DNA from: an uncultured Chloroflexota bacterium
GTDB lineage: Bacteria > Chloroflexota > Anaerolineae > Anaerolineales > Villigracilaceae
Assembly: GCA_903914955.1 (NCBI GenBank)
Contig: CAIWRB010000122.1
Span: forward strand, 1 to 64,000
DNA length: 64,000 nucleotides
Direction: 5' to 3'
Positions 42,619 through 50,964 of this stretch are shown piece by piece (position 1 is the first letter of the stretch; the number at the start of each line of letters is the position of its first letter). The position numbers and the translations under genes were made by a program. A model generated the notes under the pieces. That model made no database searches, had not been told where the DNA came from, and saw only the letters and a list, made by a program, of their open reading frames with translations.

Positions 42619-42661
42619 TGTAACTTAAGTTACAGCTTAATTCTTGAGGAAATGCTATTAT
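42619..42661 (+). promoter_or_regulatory. Putative Crp/Fnr-type activated promoter of the heme-copper operon
   Basis: The perfect palindrome TGTAACTTAAGTTACA (42619-42634) fits the GTA-N8-TAC style of Crp/Fnr-family sites. TATTAT (42656-42661) would start transcription near 42668, placing the palindrome centre at about -41.5, the class II activator position. No -35 hexamer is evident. The rest of the 361-base gap (42368-42728) shows no gene; only a weak ATTACC/GGTAAT inverted repeat near 42413-42447 is seen. Confidence 0.6.
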
Positions 42662-42728: not shown

Positions 42729-42890
42729 ATGGCTAAAAAAGAAGAAACTGAATCGAATGAGTCTCAGCCTAGGGGACAGAAAATTTTTGACAATATCTGG
42801 CTATTATTTATCCTTTCGTTATTGATCAGTACCTTGATCTATAACGTGTGGGGCATCGTCGATCTTATGAGAGTCCCGCTTGCTCCATAA
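42729..42890 (+). CDS. Small single-span membrane protein of the heme-copper operon
   Basis: This 53-residue protein has a charged N-terminus (MAKKEETESNESQPRGQK) and one membrane helix (about residues 21-44). AGGAG precedes the ATG at 42729, so this is preferred to the longer in-frame start at 42675. Its place 16 bases before CuA subunit II recalls the tiny subunit IIa of ba3-type oxidases, but similarity is only in size and position. Confidence 0.78.
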   Translation: MAKKEETESNESQPRGQKIFDNIWLLFILSLLISTLIYNVWGIVDLMRVPLAP

Positions 42891-42906: not shown

Positions 42907-43431
42907 ATGTTAGCACCTGAAAAAAATTGGTGGAAGCCGATGGGTCGCATCGAAAAGACCTGGCTGACTGTTGCATTTGTGTGGTGTATCTTCCTGACAT
43001 TGATGATGCCTCTATGGTATTTCAATGGCAAGCAGAATGTGCCCACAGAAACATATCGCACAACGCCCGCAGATTACGGAGCAAAAGTCAACGCTTTTGT
43101 GGAGCAGTATACAGTTGGGAAAGATGACGCGACCGGGTTACCGATTGTATCCGCACCTCCCGGCAGTGACATTTACCTGCGTGCCAGCACCTGGCAATGG
43201 TATCCGATCCTGCAATTGGAAAAAGGAAAGGAGTACCGCCTGCACCTTTCGTCGATGGATTACAACCACGGCTTCTCGCTTCAACCCGTGAATATCAACT
43301 TGCAAGTTTTGCCTGGTTACGATTACGTGGCGACAATTACTCCCACCAGCTCAGGCGAATTCACCATCGTTTGCAATGAATATTGTTTTGTCGGTCATCA
43401 TACGATGGTTGGCAAAATGATCGTTAAATAG
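42907..43431 (+). CDS. Heme-copper oxidoreductase subunit II (CuA type)
   Basis: The 174-residue protein has one N-terminal membrane helix (about residues 17-38) and a cupredoxin domain ending in the CuA motif CNEYCFVGHHTM. The domain's earlier His is in MDYNHGFSLQPV. It passes electrons from a soluble or membrane-bound donor to subunit I on the outer face of the membrane. It is short and ba3-like, lacking the second helix of aa3 subunit II. GGTGAGGAG lies before its start; subunit I follows ten bases after the stop. Confidence 0.93.
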   Translation: MLAPEKNWWKPMGRIEKTWLTVAFVWCIFLTLMMPLWYFNGKQNVPTETYRTTPADYGAKVNAFVEQYTVGKDDATGLPIVSAPPGSDIYLRASTWQWYPILQLEKGKEYRLHLSSMDYNHGFSLQPVNINLQVLPGYDYVATITPTSSGEFTIVCNEYCFVGHHTMVGKMIVK

Positions 43432-43441
43432 AGGAATGAAG

Positions 43442-45169
43442 ATGGCTACACTTGCACCTACAACCCCCTGGACTAAAGACGCAAAGGACGATTATCGCAA
43501 CTGTCCTGTAACCACCCTGAAAGTTGACATGCACACCGAACGGCTCATCATCGCCAATGCAGTCATGGCTGTGGTCTGCCTCACACTTGGTGGTATTGCC
43601 GCATTGTTAATCGCGCTTACCCGCTGGCAGGCCGTTCATTTACTTGGCGCGGCCTGGTTCTATCGTCTGCTCACATTGCATGGCATTGACATGCTCATCG
43701 CGTGGATCGTATTCTTCGAGATGGCTGGCTTGCACTTCGGCTCAACCGTGCTTCTCAATGCGCGCCACGCCGCACCAAAGCTTGCCTGGCTGGGCTTTGG
43801 CATGATGACAGTTGGCGGATTGATGGCAAATGCAGTTGTGCTGATTGATCCAAATTCCAGCGTAATGTTTTCGGCTTACGTTCCGCTAAAAGCGCATCCG
43901 CTATTCTATCTCAGCTACATTTTGTTTGCAGTTGGCGCGTTGATCACGGTCATCACTTTCTTCATCAACATCGTGGTTGCGAAACGTGAAAATCGATTCC
44001 AAGGCTCTTTGCCTCTGGTAGTCTTTGGCTTGATGACTGCCGCAATTCTTGCAACTTACACATTGTTGGAAGGCGCAGCCGCAATTGTGCCCGCCTTCTT
44101 ATGGTCGCTGGGCATTCTGAAAACCTATGACCCTGGAATTTACCGCAACTTCTTTTGGGGTTTCGGACATCCCGCGCAGCAAGTCAATCTCGCAGCGATG
44201 GTTTCCATCTGGTATGCGCTCGCGCAGATGACCGTCGGCATTCGCCCGGTCAACGAGAAGTTCTCACGCCTCGCGTTCATCCTGTATCTGTTCTTTATTA
44301 ATCTTGGTTCGGCGCATCACCTGCTGGTTGACCCTGGACTCTCCTTCGCGTGGAAGGCAGTCAATACTTCGTATGCGATGTATCTGGCTGTCCTCGGCTC
44401 GATGATGCACGCCTTCTCCATTCCTGCCGCATTGGAAATCGCTTTGCGTTCCAGAGGATACAGGAAAGGTTTATTTGGCTGGCTTCGAAATGCGCCCTGG
44501 GCCGAACCTGGTTTTAGTTCGCTCGTCTTATCCATGTTCCTATTTGGCTGGATCGGCGGCGTAACCGGTGTGACCATCGGTACTGAGCAGATCAACATGC
44601 TTGTGCATAACACTCTCCGCCTGCCCGGTCACTTCCATGCGACGGTAGTGAGCGGTACAACGCTCGCATTCATGGGCTTCACCTATTATGTCATTCCACT
44701 CATCTTCCGCAAGGAACTGAAACTTAAGAGCTGGGCAAAATGGCAGCCGTATATATTCGGCTTCGGAATGTTATTGACCTCATTGGGCATGATCACCAGT
44801 GGTTTGCAGGGTGTTGCCCGCCGCAATTGGGATATCACCTTCGCAGGTGTTGTACCTGGCACAGTTGAGATCACGCTCGCCATCTTCGGAATCGGCGCGC
44901 TCCTGGCAGTGGTTGGCGGCATTATGTATGTCACGATAGTGTTGGTTTCAATCCTGACGGGCCCGCGTTTGGAAGCCAGCAACTTACTACTTCTCACTGG
45001 CACGCACAATCCGATCATTGAATCCACCAAGATAACCGACGAGCAAATGGAAGATAAACAGAATCAACCGAAAGGCTCGCTGGTACTTGTCTTTGCCTTC
45101 CTGGTCTGGTTTGCCATTTACTACCTAAGCAACTGGTGGCTGCTCGGACGCACCTGGTTCATTCGATAA
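43442..45169 (+). CDS. Heme-copper oxidoreductase subunit I, Tyr-less (possible nitric oxide reductase)
   Basis: The 575-residue protein has about 13-14 helices. Visible ligands: low-spin heme His in LLTLHGIDML; active-site metal His in FFWGFGHPAQQVN and the pair in GSAHHLLVD; high-spin and low-spin heme His in LRLPGHFHATVV. In family A and B oxygen reductases, the residue four after the GHP His is a cross-linked Tyr; here it is Gln. Enzymes lacking this Tyr include NO reductases derived from oxygen reductases, so NO reduction is a real alternative to O2. The start at 43442 has GAGGA six bases upstream; ATG 43436 is less likely. Confidence 0.9.
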   Translation: MATLAPTTPWTKDAKDDYRNCPVTTLKVDMHTERLIIANAVMAVVCLTLGGIAALLIALTRWQAVHLLGAAWFYRLLTLHGIDMLIAWIVFFEMAGLHFGSTVLLNARHAAPKLAWLGFGMMTVGGLMANAVVLIDPNSSVMFSAYVPLKAHPLFYLSYILFAVGALITVITFFINIVVAKRENRFQGSLPLVVFGLMTAAILATYTLLEGAAAIVPAFLWSLGILKTYDPGIYRNFFWGFGHPAQQVNLAAMVSIWYALAQMTVGIRPVNEKFSRLAFILYLFFINLGSAHHLLVDPGLSFAWKAVNTSYAMYLAVLGSMMHAFSIPAALEIALRSRGYRKGLFGWLRNAPWAEPGFSSLVLSMFLFGWIGGVTGVTIGTEQINMLVHNTLRLPGHFHATVVSGTTLAFMGFTYYVIPLIFRKELKLKSWAKWQPYIFGFGMLLTSLGMITSGLQGVARRNWDITFAGVVPGTVEITLAIFGIGALLAVVGGIMYVTIVLVSILTGPRLEASNLLLLTGTHNPIIESTKITDEQMEDKQNQPKGSLVLVFAFLVWFAIYYLSNWWLLGRTWFIR

Positions 45170-45234: not shown

Positions 45235-45900
45235 ATGATCGCGCCTCTTTTTCTCGGCCTACTTGGAAGCCTCGGTCACTGTGTGGGGATGTGCAGCGCA
45301 GTGATTTTAATTTTCGATCGACAGCCTATTTTTCAAAATAAGTTCGCATGGTTCTTCGCGCACGCTGGCCGTGTGACAACGTACTCACTACTTGGTTTGC
45401 TCGCCGGCGCACTGGGCCAAACACTTTGGTCATTTGATAAACTCCAGGCAATTCTTTCGATTCTTTTTGCGGTCATCGCTTTTTATATGGCCTCCGCTTT
45501 TATTGGATTAACTCCCTCGCCTGAAATTTTATTTTCAGGATCGATCCAACGTTGGGGCAAAGCCATGCGTGGATTTAAATCCGATTCACTCTCCGCTTCA
45601 TATCTGCTCGGCCTGCTTTGGGGACTTCTTCCCTGCGGCCTGGTACTGACCGCGCTCGTCATGGCGATGGCTTCGACAAATATTGTCCAAGGCGCGTTGA
45701 CCATGTTCATCTTCGGCCTCGCGACTATTCCCAGCCTATTCATGGTCCGCTGGCTTGCAAATAAAATGAACTCGCGTTTTTGGCCGCGCAGTTTCGCGTC
45801 ATTAGTCATGATGTTCTTCGGTTTCCAATTCGCCATGCGCGGATTCGCTTCGCTTGGCTGGGTTGACCATCTCATGCTTGGTTCGGTAATGTTCTGGTAA
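45235..45900 (+). CDS. SafE/TauE-family (UreH-like) membrane protein, likely copper handling
   Basis: The 221-residue protein has about six membrane helices. The first carries HCVGMCSAVI, close to the HCxGMCG motif of the UreH/CcoS-neighbour group. The helix beginning LLPCGLVLTALVMAM has the LPCG motif common to these transporters. Such genes sit beside oxidase and Cu-ATPase genes (for example next to ccoI) and are thought to help copper or thiol delivery. AAGG precedes the ATG; the in-frame extension upstream lies over the preceding hairpin and subunit I end. The P-type ATPase follows six bases later. Confidence 0.86.
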   Translation: MIAPLFLGLLGSLGHCVGMCSAVILIFDRQPIFQNKFAWFFAHAGRVTTYSLLGLLAGALGQTLWSFDKLQAILSILFAVIAFYMASAFIGLTPSPEILFSGSIQRWGKAMRGFKSDSLSASYLLGLLWGLLPCGLVLTALVMAMASTNIVQGALTMFIFGLATIPSLFMVRWLANKMNSRFWPRSFASLVMMFFGFQFAMRGFASLGWVDHLMLGSVMFW

Positions 45901-45905
45901 ATAAA

Positions 45906-48284
45906 ATGATTCTCGCAACATCTGCTCCCGTCAAATCAAAAACCCTCGTCACATGTTCATTGTGCGAATTGACTACGTATCACCCGCTTACCAATAAACA
46001 AGGGGATGTATTCTGCTGTCCATCGTGCCGTGAGGTTGCGGCGTTGTTGGCTGAGGCGCCAGCACTGCCAATTAAACAGGAGCAGGCTAAAGACGCGGAA
46101 GGAAGCGCAGAGATCATCCTCACCTTGGGCGGCATGTGGTGTTCATCCTGCGCGTGGCTGGTCAGTGAACAGCTGCGCCGCACACCTGGCGTGGTCAGCG
46201 CTGATGTTAGTTTCATCCAAAAGCAGGCAAATCTAACTTATGACGCGTCGCTGTTGGATGCGCGAAAAATTAAGAAGCGCGTGCGCGCGTTAGGCTATCA
46301 GGCGGCGCTGCCAAACGAAAAACCTCATGATGAAGAAGAATCTTTTTACACGCGCTTGTTGATCGGCGGCGTGATGGTTTTACATGACATGATCGTTGGC
46401 GCGGGCATCTACGGTCGTGAACTGCTCGGCTGGGCAACTCCCGAAACTGCCTGGCTGGTACATTTTTTTCAACTGATGATGCTGGTCACAAGCCTGCCAG
46501 TTTTGATATTACTCGGCTTGCCCATTCTGCGCGCGGGACTCGCCAGCCTGTTACGATTGCAGCCCAACATTCATACACTGATCGCGATCGGCACATTCTC
46601 GGCGTTCGCTTTATCCGTCCGCAATTTTATCTCTGGTTCTGGCGGATTGTATTTCGATACCGCCACGATGCTCATCTTTTTGGTTTCGATAGGACACTGG
46701 CTGGAGATGCAGGCGCATAAATCCAGCAGTAAAGCTGTGGCACGTTTACTTGAACAGATTCCTGATAAGGCAATTATCGTAACTGGAAAACGTGATAGAT
46801 CCGTACCAGTAAGCGAATTGAAACCTGGTCAACGCGTGCGCGTGCGTCCTGGCGAGCGCTTTCCTGTGGATGGCTTGATCGCGATCGGCGAAGGTGACGT
46901 GGATGAATCTTTGCTGACAGGCGAGCCGCGCCCTGTGACCCATCGCGAAGGGCAGACGGTCAAAGCGGGGACGATCAGCCTGGACGGAAGTTTTGAAGTG
47001 ATCACAACTGCTGTAGGCGATTCGACCGCAGCGGGACAAATTGGGCGACTGCTGCATGAAGCCCTGTGGAATCGTTCTCCCATTGAACGGCTCGCCGACA
47101 AATTGTCCGCGTGGATGACTCCGATCGCGCTGGCGCTGGCGACGATTGCCTTCTTAATTTGGAATTATTTTTCAGGTTTTGAAGCTGGCCTACTGGTCGC
47201 GCTTTCTGTTTTGTTGATCGCGTGTCCGTGTGCGTTGGGGCTGGCAACTCCGCTTACGCTTTGGCTGGCATTGGGACGTGCGGCTGAGTCAGGTGTGATC
47301 TTGCGCAGTACTGCCGCGCTCGAAAGACTGGCCAGCGTGAAGAAAGTATTCTTCGATAAAACAGGCACACTGACAAAATTGCCAATGCAAGTTGGAGGGA
47401 TTTATTTAGTCCCCGCTCCTTTTGGGAAAGGGGTAGAAGTGAAGGAAAGAGAGTTCCTTCAAATAGTTGCTTCAATAGAAAACGCATCTGAACATCCGAT
47501 GGCAAAAGCGATTGTCGACTGTGCGCGTGCGAAAAAAATAAAATTATCCAAGCCAACAGAATTCAAAGCTTTGCCAGGCATGGGCGTGACCGCAAAACTT
47601 GATGGAAAGATAATTGTCATCGGCAGCGCACGCTTTATGTCTGCTCGAGGGTTGACTCTCCCTGTCAGATTAAAGAAGCAGGCTGAGGTATGGAAAGATT
47701 CGGGACAGGTTGTCGTCTATGCCGGTTGGGGTGGAAAAACCATCGGTCTGATCGGCTTGGGAGAAACCATCCGCTGTGAAGTAAGTGAAGTGATGACGCA
47801 ATTGCAATCACGCGGACTTGCTCTTGGTGTGCTAACAGGTGATGAAAAACAAGCAGGCGCGCGCTGGCAAAAGATACTTGGCATTCCCGTCCACGCGTCG
47901 CTCAGCCCTGATGAGAAGATGTCTTATTTGCTTGAAGACGCCGCGATGATCGGCGATGGCATCAACGACGGTCCCGCGCTCGCCGCTGCGACTGTGGGGC
48001 TTGCCATGAATCACGGCACCGATGTAGCTCGCACTGCTTCTGATATTGTGCTCATGCGCGAAGATCTAAGTGTGATTCCCTGGCTCGTGGATCTTTCGCG
48101 TGAAACGATGAAACGGGTACGCCAAAATCTTGGCTGGGCGTTTATTTATAATTTGATCGGAATTGGACTCGCGATGGCCGGCTTGATGCAGCCTGTCTTC
48201 GCCGCGCTGGCGATGGTGCTGAGCAGTGTTTTTGTCACAGCCAACGCAATGAAAATGAATAAGTTTCCGTTGTTGAAAGAATAA
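45906..48284 (+). CDS. Copper-transporting P1B-type ATPase (CcoI/FixI-like)
   Basis: The 792-residue protein has an N-terminal Cys cluster (CSLC, FCCPSC), an HMA domain (GGMWCSSCAW) and about eight membrane helices. The transport site is ACPCALGLATP, the phosphorylation motif DKTGTLT, and the hinge GDGINDGPALAAA. The extra N-terminal metal-binding Cys domain before HMA is typical of FixI/CcoI ATPases that supply Cu to heme-copper oxidase assembly rather than for detoxification. Its position after the subunit genes supports this. Only one HMA domain is seen. Confidence 0.95.
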   Translation: MILATSAPVKSKTLVTCSLCELTTYHPLTNKQGDVFCCPSCREVAALLAEAPALPIKQEQAKDAEGSAEIILTLGGMWCSSCAWLVSEQLRRTPGVVSADVSFIQKQANLTYDASLLDARKIKKRVRALGYQAALPNEKPHDEEESFYTRLLIGGVMVLHDMIVGAGIYGRELLGWATPETAWLVHFFQLMMLVTSLPVLILLGLPILRAGLASLLRLQPNIHTLIAIGTFSAFALSVRNFISGSGGLYFDTATMLIFLVSIGHWLEMQAHKSSSKAVARLLEQIPDKAIIVTGKRDRSVPVSELKPGQRVRVRPGERFPVDGLIAIGEGDVDESLLTGEPRPVTHREGQTVKAGTISLDGSFEVITTAVGDSTAAGQIGRLLHEALWNRSPIERLADKLSAWMTPIALALATIAFLIWNYFSGFEAGLLVALSVLLIACPCALGLATPLTLWLALGRAAESGVILRSTAALERLASVKKVFFDKTGTLTKLPMQVGGIYLVPAPFGKGVEVKEREFLQIVASIENASEHPMAKAIVDCARAKKIKLSKPTEFKALPGMGVTAKLDGKIIVIGSARFMSARGLTLPVRLKKQAEVWKDSGQVVVYAGWGGKTIGLIGLGETIRCEVSEVMTQLQSRGLALGVLTGDEKQAGARWQKILGIPVHASLSPDEKMSYLLEDAAMIGDGINDGPALAAATVGLAMNHGTDVARTASDIVLMREDLSVIPWLVDLSRETMKRVRQNLGWAFIYNLIGIGLAMAGLMQPVFAALAMVLSSVFVTANAMKMNKFPLLKE

Positions 48285-48355: not shown

Positions 48356-50416
48356 ATGACCCCTAACCCCTACACAAAGCGTCGTTTTTTAAGAAGCCTC
48401 GAAAAACTCTGGGCTTCCCTTGAAGGAATTACAAACCGATTCACAAGATCGGACTTCAATCCTTTCTATCATCTTGGCACACTGACTATTTTTATGCTGA
48501 TCGTGCTGATCGCAACCGGCACCTATCTCACCCTCATTTACCGCCCTGGCTTGGATGTCGCCTACGCCACCGTCAATAAAATCGATTCAAATTGGTTTGG
48601 CTCGCTCATGCGCAGCGTGCATCGTTACGCATCCGACGGCATGATCGTGCTCATTGTTTTACATTTGCTCAAAGTATTGGTCAGTGACCGTTTTTGGGGT
48701 CAGCGCTGGCTGGCTTGGACCAGCGGTTGGATCATGCTCGCCATGGTCTGGCTGACAGGCACAATGGGCTACTGGCTCATCTGGGATCAGCGCGGGCAAT
48801 GGATGACCGAGTATATGATGCAAGCGCTCGCAGGCACATCAGGGCTAACCTATGTTGCGCCCGATCTTGCCTCGCGTACTTTTTCAAACTTCGTCATCAT
48901 TCTCTTCCTGCATGTTTTTCTGCCGTTGATCGGTTTCCTCGGCATCTACATTCATGGCTTGCGGCTCTCCCGCGCGCGCTGGTGGTCGCCTCGCTGGGTC
49001 AGCATGCAAGCCCTTGTTGGCCTCGTTGTACTTTCAATCATCAAGCCCACCCTATCTTCCGCGCCAGCCGATCTATCGCACCTCATTCAATCTGCTCCAA
49101 TGGACGCGCTTTATCTTGGCTTTCTGCCATTAATGGATCTATGGGGCAATGTGATTTTCTGGGGACTTGCGATTCTCGTCGGCGGCAGTTTATTCCTGCT
49201 CCCCTGGCTCGCTTCAGGTCGTGACGATGGACCTGCCATTGTTACCGACCCAAAGTGTACTGGCTGTAACATTTGCTACGCCGAATGCCCATTTGACGCG
49301 ATCCGCATGGTCGATCGAAATGATACTTCGGGATATCATAAGTTGGCGGTCATCGACAATGCTCAATGTACAGCCTGCGGAATTTGCATAGGCGCGTGTC
49401 CAACAAACGCGATTGATCTGAAAGGCGGCTATAACGGAGAGGCTGTCTTTGGTGCTGTGAAAGGCGCGCTTCATCGCGAGAATAATGATGGTCACCCCGT
49501 TACGATTTTATTTGCAAGCCAGCATGACGAAGCGTTGGGCGGATTGCCCGCAAAGTTAACTGTCAGCGAAAATAATATTCCAGTATCAGTAACAGGCTGG
49601 GGGTCAGAAGAATCGGTACGAGTGGTCACAGCTGTGCTGCCCTCCATTAGCGCGATCAACATCGAATGGATCAAGTCTCTGCATTCCGAAGGAGCGCGCG
49701 ATATCATCCTGCTTTCAGCCCCATATGATGACGGTGTTTATCGCGAAGACGCGCATTGGATCTTAAATCGTTTACATTCGCGCCCTGCGCTGGTAACAAA
49801 GGGATTGCATTGGCTTGAAACAACACCCGGTGATTCTAAAACCGTCGCAAATTTTCTGGATGACTTGCATCGCGATGAAACACAGGCAAAAAAGAGAGCG
49901 CCTGTTTTACCGACCGTGAAGGATCGCAATAAACTTTTTCCATCCATTGTCAGCGCATTGATCGGAACGATCATATTATTTTCAATTTTTGCGGTTGCCA
50001 TTCCACTTGATATTCCTGCGGGCATGTCCAAAGCAGACGGGGCGGCTATGCGTATCGCGCTTGATCTAAAAGGAAAAATTTCCGCCGCCGCAATTCCCCC
50101 AGGCGTGACCCTGCCAGAAGGTGCGGATGCGGAAAAAATATTTGGCGGAGAACACTTCCCCGCCCTTCTGCGAGTGACTGTTGATGGGAAGCAAGTTTTT
50201 GAAAAAACCTATCAGCCTTCGGGAGTCAGCGGCAATGGACGCATCTCAGCGCTGGAATTCCTGCCGCTCACAGCCGGTTCACACCAAATTGAAATTCTAT
50301 TAAAAGATGACGGAAATGATTTCCGTACAGTTTTTTCAGATGAAGTTGTATTTGATGTGTCTCAGGTAATCGTATTTCATTACTCCGATAAGAGTAACAC
50401 GATTGAAGTAAGGTAA
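48356..50416 (+). CDS. Cytochrome b / two [4Fe-4S] ferredoxin / MvhD-like fusion protein
   Basis: The 686-residue protein has four helices in residues about 40-230 with paired His (SVHRYASDGMIVLIVLHLL and LHVFLPLIGFLGIYIHGL), matching the cytochrome b N-terminal domain. A helix near 260-285 leads to a ferredoxin domain with CTGCNICYAECP and CTACGICIGACP. Next is a region like the MvhD hydrogenase iron-sulfur subunit, but with the Cys of LPC and GC replaced (LPSISAIN, LLSAP). A last membrane helix and a beta-rich extracellular domain end the protein. It probably moves electrons between ferredoxin or quinone and the oxidoreductase. Shine-Dalgarno is weak. Confidence 0.85.
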   Translation: MTPNPYTKRRFLRSLEKLWASLEGITNRFTRSDFNPFYHLGTLTIFMLIVLIATGTYLTLIYRPGLDVAYATVNKIDSNWFGSLMRSVHRYASDGMIVLIVLHLLKVLVSDRFWGQRWLAWTSGWIMLAMVWLTGTMGYWLIWDQRGQWMTEYMMQALAGTSGLTYVAPDLASRTFSNFVIILFLHVFLPLIGFLGIYIHGLRLSRARWWSPRWVSMQALVGLVVLSIIKPTLSSAPADLSHLIQSAPMDALYLGFLPLMDLWGNVIFWGLAILVGGSLFLLPWLASGRDDGPAIVTDPKCTGCNICYAECPFDAIRMVDRNDTSGYHKLAVIDNAQCTACGICIGACPTNAIDLKGGYNGEAVFGAVKGALHRENNDGHPVTILFASQHDEALGGLPAKLTVSENNIPVSVTGWGSEESVRVVTAVLPSISAINIEWIKSLHSEGARDIILLSAPYDDGVYREDAHWILNRLHSRPALVTKGLHWLETTPGDSKTVANFLDDLHRDETQAKKRAPVLPTVKDRNKLFPSIVSALIGTIILFSIFAVAIPLDIPAGMSKADGAAMRIALDLKGKISAAAIPPGVTLPEGADAEKIFGGEHFPALLRVTVDGKQVFEKTYQPSGVSGNGRISALEFLPLTAGSHQIEILLKDDGNDFRTVFSDEVVFDVSQVIVFHYSDKSNTIEVR

Positions 50417-50423
50417 ATTTTTG

Positions 50424-50473
50424 ACAAACAAAAAGAACGTGAAGCTTTTTTGCTTCACGTTCTTTTTGTTTGT
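50424..50473. terminator. Bidirectional terminator
   Basis: A perfect stem of about 22 bases (an ACAAACAAAAAGAACGTGAAGC-type arm and complement) closes a six-T loop, with A and T rich flanks. It separates the convergent cytochrome b fusion and the signal-peptide protein gene. Confidence 0.93.
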
Positions 50474-50964
50474 TACTTTTTTTGTTTGGGCTTTGTTCGA
50501 TATGCAATGAAGAAGCCGGTCAACAAAACAACCAACACCGCAAAGGGAATCCACGTCAGCCGTGTATCTTCTGCAAGAGCGGAGAGAAATGGTTCTTTTA
50601 TGGCTGGGTTGGCAATATACCATTTGCCGCCATCTTCAGAAAAACCATTGACGATGCCGTCATAATACACAAAGCCTGTGTACGGATAGTAATGCAATTG
50701 GTCATACGGAACGCCTTTACTGCCCTCTGCCACCATTCGCACAACCTGAAACCCCGCACCAGGTTCGGCAGGCTCGGCAACGCTGCCTTTTGAGAAATCA
50801 GCGAATGTAAAATAATCCTGTGTAAGAACAGGATTGGACACATTGACATCGCCTGTAATGCCGGGGCCTTTGATCACGATATAATCAAATTTACCTTTGG
50901 CAAAGGCAAAGGTAGCAGGGATAAAAAGAGCTAAAACTAAAAAGAAGAAGAGTGTCTTTTTCAT
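50473..50964 (-). CDS. Exported protein with C-terminal membrane anchor, unknown function
   Basis: The 163-residue protein has a signal peptide (MKKTLFFFLVLALFIPATFAFA) and a single C-terminal helix (about residues 134-153) followed by a basic tail. This is a type I topology with the middle outside. The outer part is acidic and Tyr/Phe-rich and holds no Cys. I do not recognise a family. It is convergent to the electron-transfer operon and divergent from the sigma factor gene, so any link is by position only. Confidence 0.75.
   Translation of the reverse strand: MKKTLFFFLVLALFIPATFAFAKGKFDYIVIKGPGITGDVNVSNPVLTQDYFTFADFSKGSVAEPAEPGAGFQVVRMVAEGSKGVPYDQLHYYPYTGFVYYDGIVNGFSEDGGKWYIANPAIKEPFLSALAEDTRLTWIPFAVLVVLLTGFFIAYRTKPKQKK

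Follow-up and report, generated by a model that had tools for sequence, protein, structure and literature searches.

A conserved Chloroflexota operon that very probably encodes a CuA-type nitric oxide reductase of the eNOR family

The locus and its operon

The window, that is, the entire stretch of 64,000 nucleotides analyzed (on contig C122), comes from a 4.4-Mb genome that is 98.7% complete. Its nearest named records are metagenome-assembled genomes (MAGs) of Villigracilaceae and Anaerolineales, within the Chloroflexota. On the forward strand, six genes form an operon in the order small membrane protein, subunit II, subunit I, DsbD_2 protein, copper ATPase and cytochrome b/Fe-S protein. The five genes from subunit II onward recur in the majority of Chloroflexota loci of sufficient length. 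The record titles of relatives indicate groundwater, lakes and sludge, and subunit I is 99% identical to its counterpart in one MAG from Lake Pavin.

The first gene (42,729 to 42,890, +) encodes a membrane protein of 53 amino acids with a single helix. This reading frame is conserved directly 5' of subunit II in most loci, including those of Nitrospirota and Thermus (41 amino acids in the Thermus version), and its product is probably an extra subunit. Subunit II (174 amino acids; 42,907 to 43,431, +) lies directly 5' of the subunit I gene and matches ba3 subunit II with E=1.7e-14. Residues H121, C156, E158, C160, H164 and M167 align to the CuA site of the ba3 protein, and these ligands are conserved in 90 to 91 of 91 sequences. 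The initial annotation of the locus, made by reading the sequence without database searches, had described the CuA site as complete, and the alignment bears this out.

Downstream of subunit I lie two genes with probable roles in metal handling. The DsbD_2 membrane protein (45,235 to 45,900, +; PF13386, E=9.5e-42; longest reading frame from 45,136) is probably a copper or assembly factor, and the copper-translocating P-type ATPase (45,906 to 48,284, +; TIGR01511, over cut-off) probably supplies metal. Both are conserved in the operon. In the literature searched, we found no link of either gene, or of the cytochrome b/Fe-S gene, to eNOR. After the operon, a protein of 163 amino acids is encoded on the opposite strand (50,473 to 50,964, -); genomes of the genus share it at this position, and it has no Pfam match over cut-off.

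A perfect 16-bp palindrome, TGTAACTTAAGTTACA (42,619 to 42,634), resides about 290 bp 5' of subunit II and is a candidate operator, with variants of the form TGTRAC-N4-GTYAC at a similar place upstream of many orthologues in the genus. We rejected the idea that it marks a genome-wide regulon, as a loose pattern gave only four matches, fewer than the reversed control. No FNR-type box was found upstream of the operon.

An active site with glutamine in place of tyrosine

Subunit I, the heme-copper catalytic subunit (577 amino acids; 43,436 to 45,169, +), matches PF00115 with E=2.6e-63. The initial annotation had set its reading frame at 43,442 to 45,169; the end and strand stand, but 43,442 is the next in-frame ATG after 43,436. 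The frame is intact and, as was also claimed, retains the metal and heme ligands, with six of six canonical His residues present (H82, H245, H294, H295, H399 and H401). The CuB ligands His294 and His295 of helix VII (codons at 44,315 to 44,320) are invariant in our alignment. Helix VI has the sequence FWGFGHPAQQVNLAAMVSIWY, and its motif is also given as FWGFGHPAQQVN. The initial reading of a helix VI His followed by P-A-Q-Q proved correct: in G-H245-P-A-Q-Q249 (His245 to Gln249 codons at 44,168 to 44,182, +), the residue at +4, which is Tyr in A- and B-family oxygen reductases, is Gln249, and Gln248 stands at +3.

Both Gln residues are invariant in an alignment of 42 divergent sequences that share this site (Q-type sequences), as are Glu95, Asn251, Tyr284, Ile288, Asn310, Tyr313 and His325. 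The GHxxQQ motif was present in the relatives found, from 99 down to 46.5% identity. Because the motif is invariant in relatives, a pseudogene or a sequencing error as the source of the Gln was ruled out. As a separate observation, subunit I is broken across several frames in a few relatives (L087, L092/L030 and contig C1 of genome G016), reflecting either assembly errors or gene decay.

Subunit I resembles B-family oxygen reductases, such as the Thermus thermophilus ba3 oxidase and the B-family copy of the organism's own genome (contig C95), in fold, in metal ligands, in having a CuA subunit II and in the Glu of subunit II that starts the proton path. An AlphaFold model (pLDDT 81.1, pTM 0.85) has the ba3 oxidase 1xme as its closest structure (E=9.7e-17). 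However, the six aligned B-family sequences carry Val, Tyr and Trp at positions 248, 249 and 251 (+3, +4 and +6), where the protein in the window has Gln, Gln and Asn, and the Thr of helix VIII is replaced by His325.

In cbb3 oxidases, the active-site Tyr is supplied instead by helix VII, six residues ahead of the CuB His pair; CcoN of Sinorhizobium meliloti pSymA, for example, has this Tyr in YIWAGPHH. The initial annotation had proposed a check for such a stand-in. None was found at the equivalent position, which is the invariant Ile288, and a cbb3-style substitute is thus ruled out by register. Helix VII does contain Tyr284, which is Phe in B-family oxidases. Judged by register, this residue would not be equivalent to the cbb3 Tyr, as it lies four residues farther from the His pair.

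Tyr284 nevertheless enters into a competing explanation, which we consider quite unlikely. In it, the enzyme would be a B-type oxygen reductase of high affinity that reduces NO as a side reaction, and the role of the usual Tyr would fall to Gln or to a different residue, for instance this clade-specific Tyr. The B-family fold, the full set of metal ligands and the distribution of Tyr284 fit such an enzyme, whereas Ile288 at the cbb3-equivalent position argues against it. So does the presence of oxidases with Tyr elsewhere in the same genome. Its three PF00115 genes encode the eNOR-type subunit I, an A-type protein with HPAVY and the B-type protein of contig C95 with HPLVY; there is no other nitric oxide reductase (NOR) among the three.

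Probable assignment to the eNOR family

In a maximum-likelihood tree of 47 sequences with an A-family root, drawn without named bNOR, sNOR, gNOR or nNOR references or a purified-eNOR sequence, all 30 Q-type sequences form one branch beside the B-family oxidases (support 100/99). Relatives from Ardenticatenaceae, Thermus and Defluviimonas fall inside this clade. Grouping with proven oxygen reductases, for which the initial annotation had suggested a tree as a check, was not seen. Matches on haloarchaeal plasmids were considered as archaeal eNOR and rejected, since their HPVVY motif marks them as Tyr oxidases.

Several relatives depart from the common pattern. In two divergent eNOR-like proteins from Thermus plasmids (L118 and L119), Lys takes the place of His as the helix X ligand of the low-spin heme (GHFK). 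At locus L026 (7225 to 8883, -), NirK genes flank a sister-like subunit I that keeps its metal ligands but pairs Gln at +3 with Tyr at +4 (GHTLQY); this protein lies on a long branch in the tree and is a possible intermediate between eNOR and B-family oxidases. Some relatives' operons encode a second, tandem subunit I-like protein (L024, 4149 to 5630, -; L025, 6764 to 8344, +; L094, 3742 to 5157, +; L026, 5710 to 7218, -). These proteins form their own clade, carry GHxxQY and AHYH but not the CuB His pair, and are apparently heme-copper subunits without CuB.

The eNOR family reportedly goes back to Hemp and Gennis in 2008. Its common features are a B-family-derived subunit I with Gln at the Tyr position and all metal ligands, a cupredoxin/CuA subunit II encoded immediately upstream, occurrence in Anaerolineae, and nir genes often in the genome or neighborhood. 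A published table of active-site residues assigns Tyr to oxygen reductases, Glu to cNOR and qNOR, Asn to sNOR and CuANOR, Asp to gNOR and Gln to eNOR; the same paper takes Gln as the identifier of eNOR (PMC8756737). The family is already known from Chloroflexi (PMC4653789, PMC8756737); in Ardenticatena, also in the Chloroflexota, an eNOR-NirK operon occurs alongside oxidases of the A and B families (PMC4653789).

Gln249, conserved in 42 of 42 sequences, and the CuA subunit encoded together with subunit I agree with these features. Nothing excludes membership, and the genome of the window differs in lacking detectable nir and nos genes. Neither the Glu of cNOR and qNOR nor their input from cytochrome c or quinol instead of CuA is seen here. 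Another CuA-type family (sNOR, bNOR/CuANOR, gNOR or nNOR) is a most improbable assignment: these families, too, are related to B-family oxidases, and some carry CuA (sNOR and bNOR/CuANOR count as CuA-type NORs or as candidates for this function), but the published diagnostic residue is Asn in sNOR and CuANOR and Asp in gNOR. For nNOR, no residue was found in the literature searched. As for the oxygen reductase explanation, a dispute over the function of the related sNOR (PMC6967387) lends it some weight, whereas the listing of eNOR among four biochemically characterized NORs (PMC11388526) speaks against it. We therefore regard the enzyme not as a new kind but as a member of the described eNOR family.

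Linkage to denitrification genes

We found nirS or nirK on 12 of the retrieved loci, from Chloroflexota, an Acidobacteriota-labeled MAG, Nitrospirota and Thermus. In six of the 12, nirS immediately precedes the eNOR genes in the same orientation; one of the 12 (L093) has a nirK fragment about 6 kb downstream. Neighbors of eNOR on Thermus plasmids include nirS, an Rrf2 regulator and a RIC/ScdA-like protein. The eNOR gene occurs in 20 of the 37 genomes of the window's genus. Eight of the 20 also carry NirS (E<1e-80), which was seen in none of the remaining 17 (Fisher p=0.0039, not corrected for kinship or completeness), and NirK shows no association (14/20 versus 12/17). The proximity of nirS or nirK in several phyla argues against an oxygen reductase.

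The organism's own genome gives a different picture, and the lack of an NO-forming nitrite reductase there would suit an oxygen reductase. Searches of this genome gave no match for NirS or NirK, only short cupredoxin matches for NosZ, no NrfA, no NarG over cut-off and only fragments of NapA (118 bits, versus a cut-off of 930.6 bits). Because an NO-forming nitrite reductase and NosZ were not detected, the organism is not a complete denitrifier; partial denitrification or NO scavenging is the most that it would carry out. The enzyme therefore probably draws on NO that arises outside the cell, or on a source other than those searched for.

Taken together, the separate Q-type clade, the published Gln of eNOR, the lack of Tyr at the cbb3 position and the nir linkage in several phyla support the original proposal of a CuA-type NOR derived from oxygen reductases. 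We conclude that the operon very probably encodes such an enzyme, belonging to the already named eNOR family, with NO as its presumed substrate.

Proposed mechanism

Electrons would enter at CuA of subunit II and reach the low-spin heme (H82/H401) first; from there they would move on to the site formed by the high-spin heme (H399) and CuB (H245/H294/H295), which would convert two NO to N2O. NO reduction needs two electrons and two protons. Oxidase-type O-O cleavage is expected to be impaired without the active-site Tyr, and Gln249 in place of the redox-active, His-crosslinked Tyr would leave a site without a tyrosyl electron and proton donor for O2 splitting.

A single B-type proton channel is among the criteria for eNOR. 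Protons may come from the cytoplasm, because the B-type path from Glu16 of subunit II seems to be retained in part. Glu16 is kept in 88 of 91 sequences, and we take it, together with Tyr260, Ser322 and Ser328, to correspond to residues of the ba3 proton path. From the alignment, the path appears only partly conserved, since one channel Tyr of ba3 is replaced by Val256. The DsbD_2 protein and the copper ATPase would probably serve assembly of the copper sites.

A candidate electron donor

The last and least explained part of the operon encodes a membrane protein of 686 amino acids (48,356 to 50,416, +) that combines a cytochrome b6-like region (PF00033), two [4Fe-4S] clusters (PF12838) and a further region that we read as MvhD-like. 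The four heme His residues are present in 47 of 47 sequences, and the eight [4Fe-4S] Cys residues in 46 to 47 of 47. The further region carries extra Cys residues in 23 of the 47 sequences, which are absent in the genus of the window; in the window protein it has no Pfam match, and in a Defluviimonas homologue it matches the C-terminal part of HdrA2. That homologue occurs with eNOR on a plasmid. The protein also adjoins eNOR in loci of Nitrospirota and Deltaproteobacteria, and relatives were found at loci L061, L063, L074, L099, L105 and L133.

This co-occurrence makes the protein a candidate electron donor of eNOR. A more specific and rather doubtful proposal is that it is a dedicated entry point at which electrons from ferredoxin or an Hdr-like partner in the cytoplasm pass, via quinone or directly, to the CuA site of eNOR. 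It would then form part of an undescribed membrane module for NO respiration, whose MvhD-like Cys residues were lost secondarily in this genus.

Conclusions

Because no NO-forming nitrite reductase was detected in the genome, neighbors are the most likely source of the NO that the enzyme would consume, whether for respiration or for detoxification. Genes of this kind routinely carry the label cytochrome c oxidase or "cbb3-type subunit I", so that the putative capacity of Anaerolineales to reduce NO and form N2O is overlooked. With its conserved operon, a NOR family that has received little study gains partners that can be tested.
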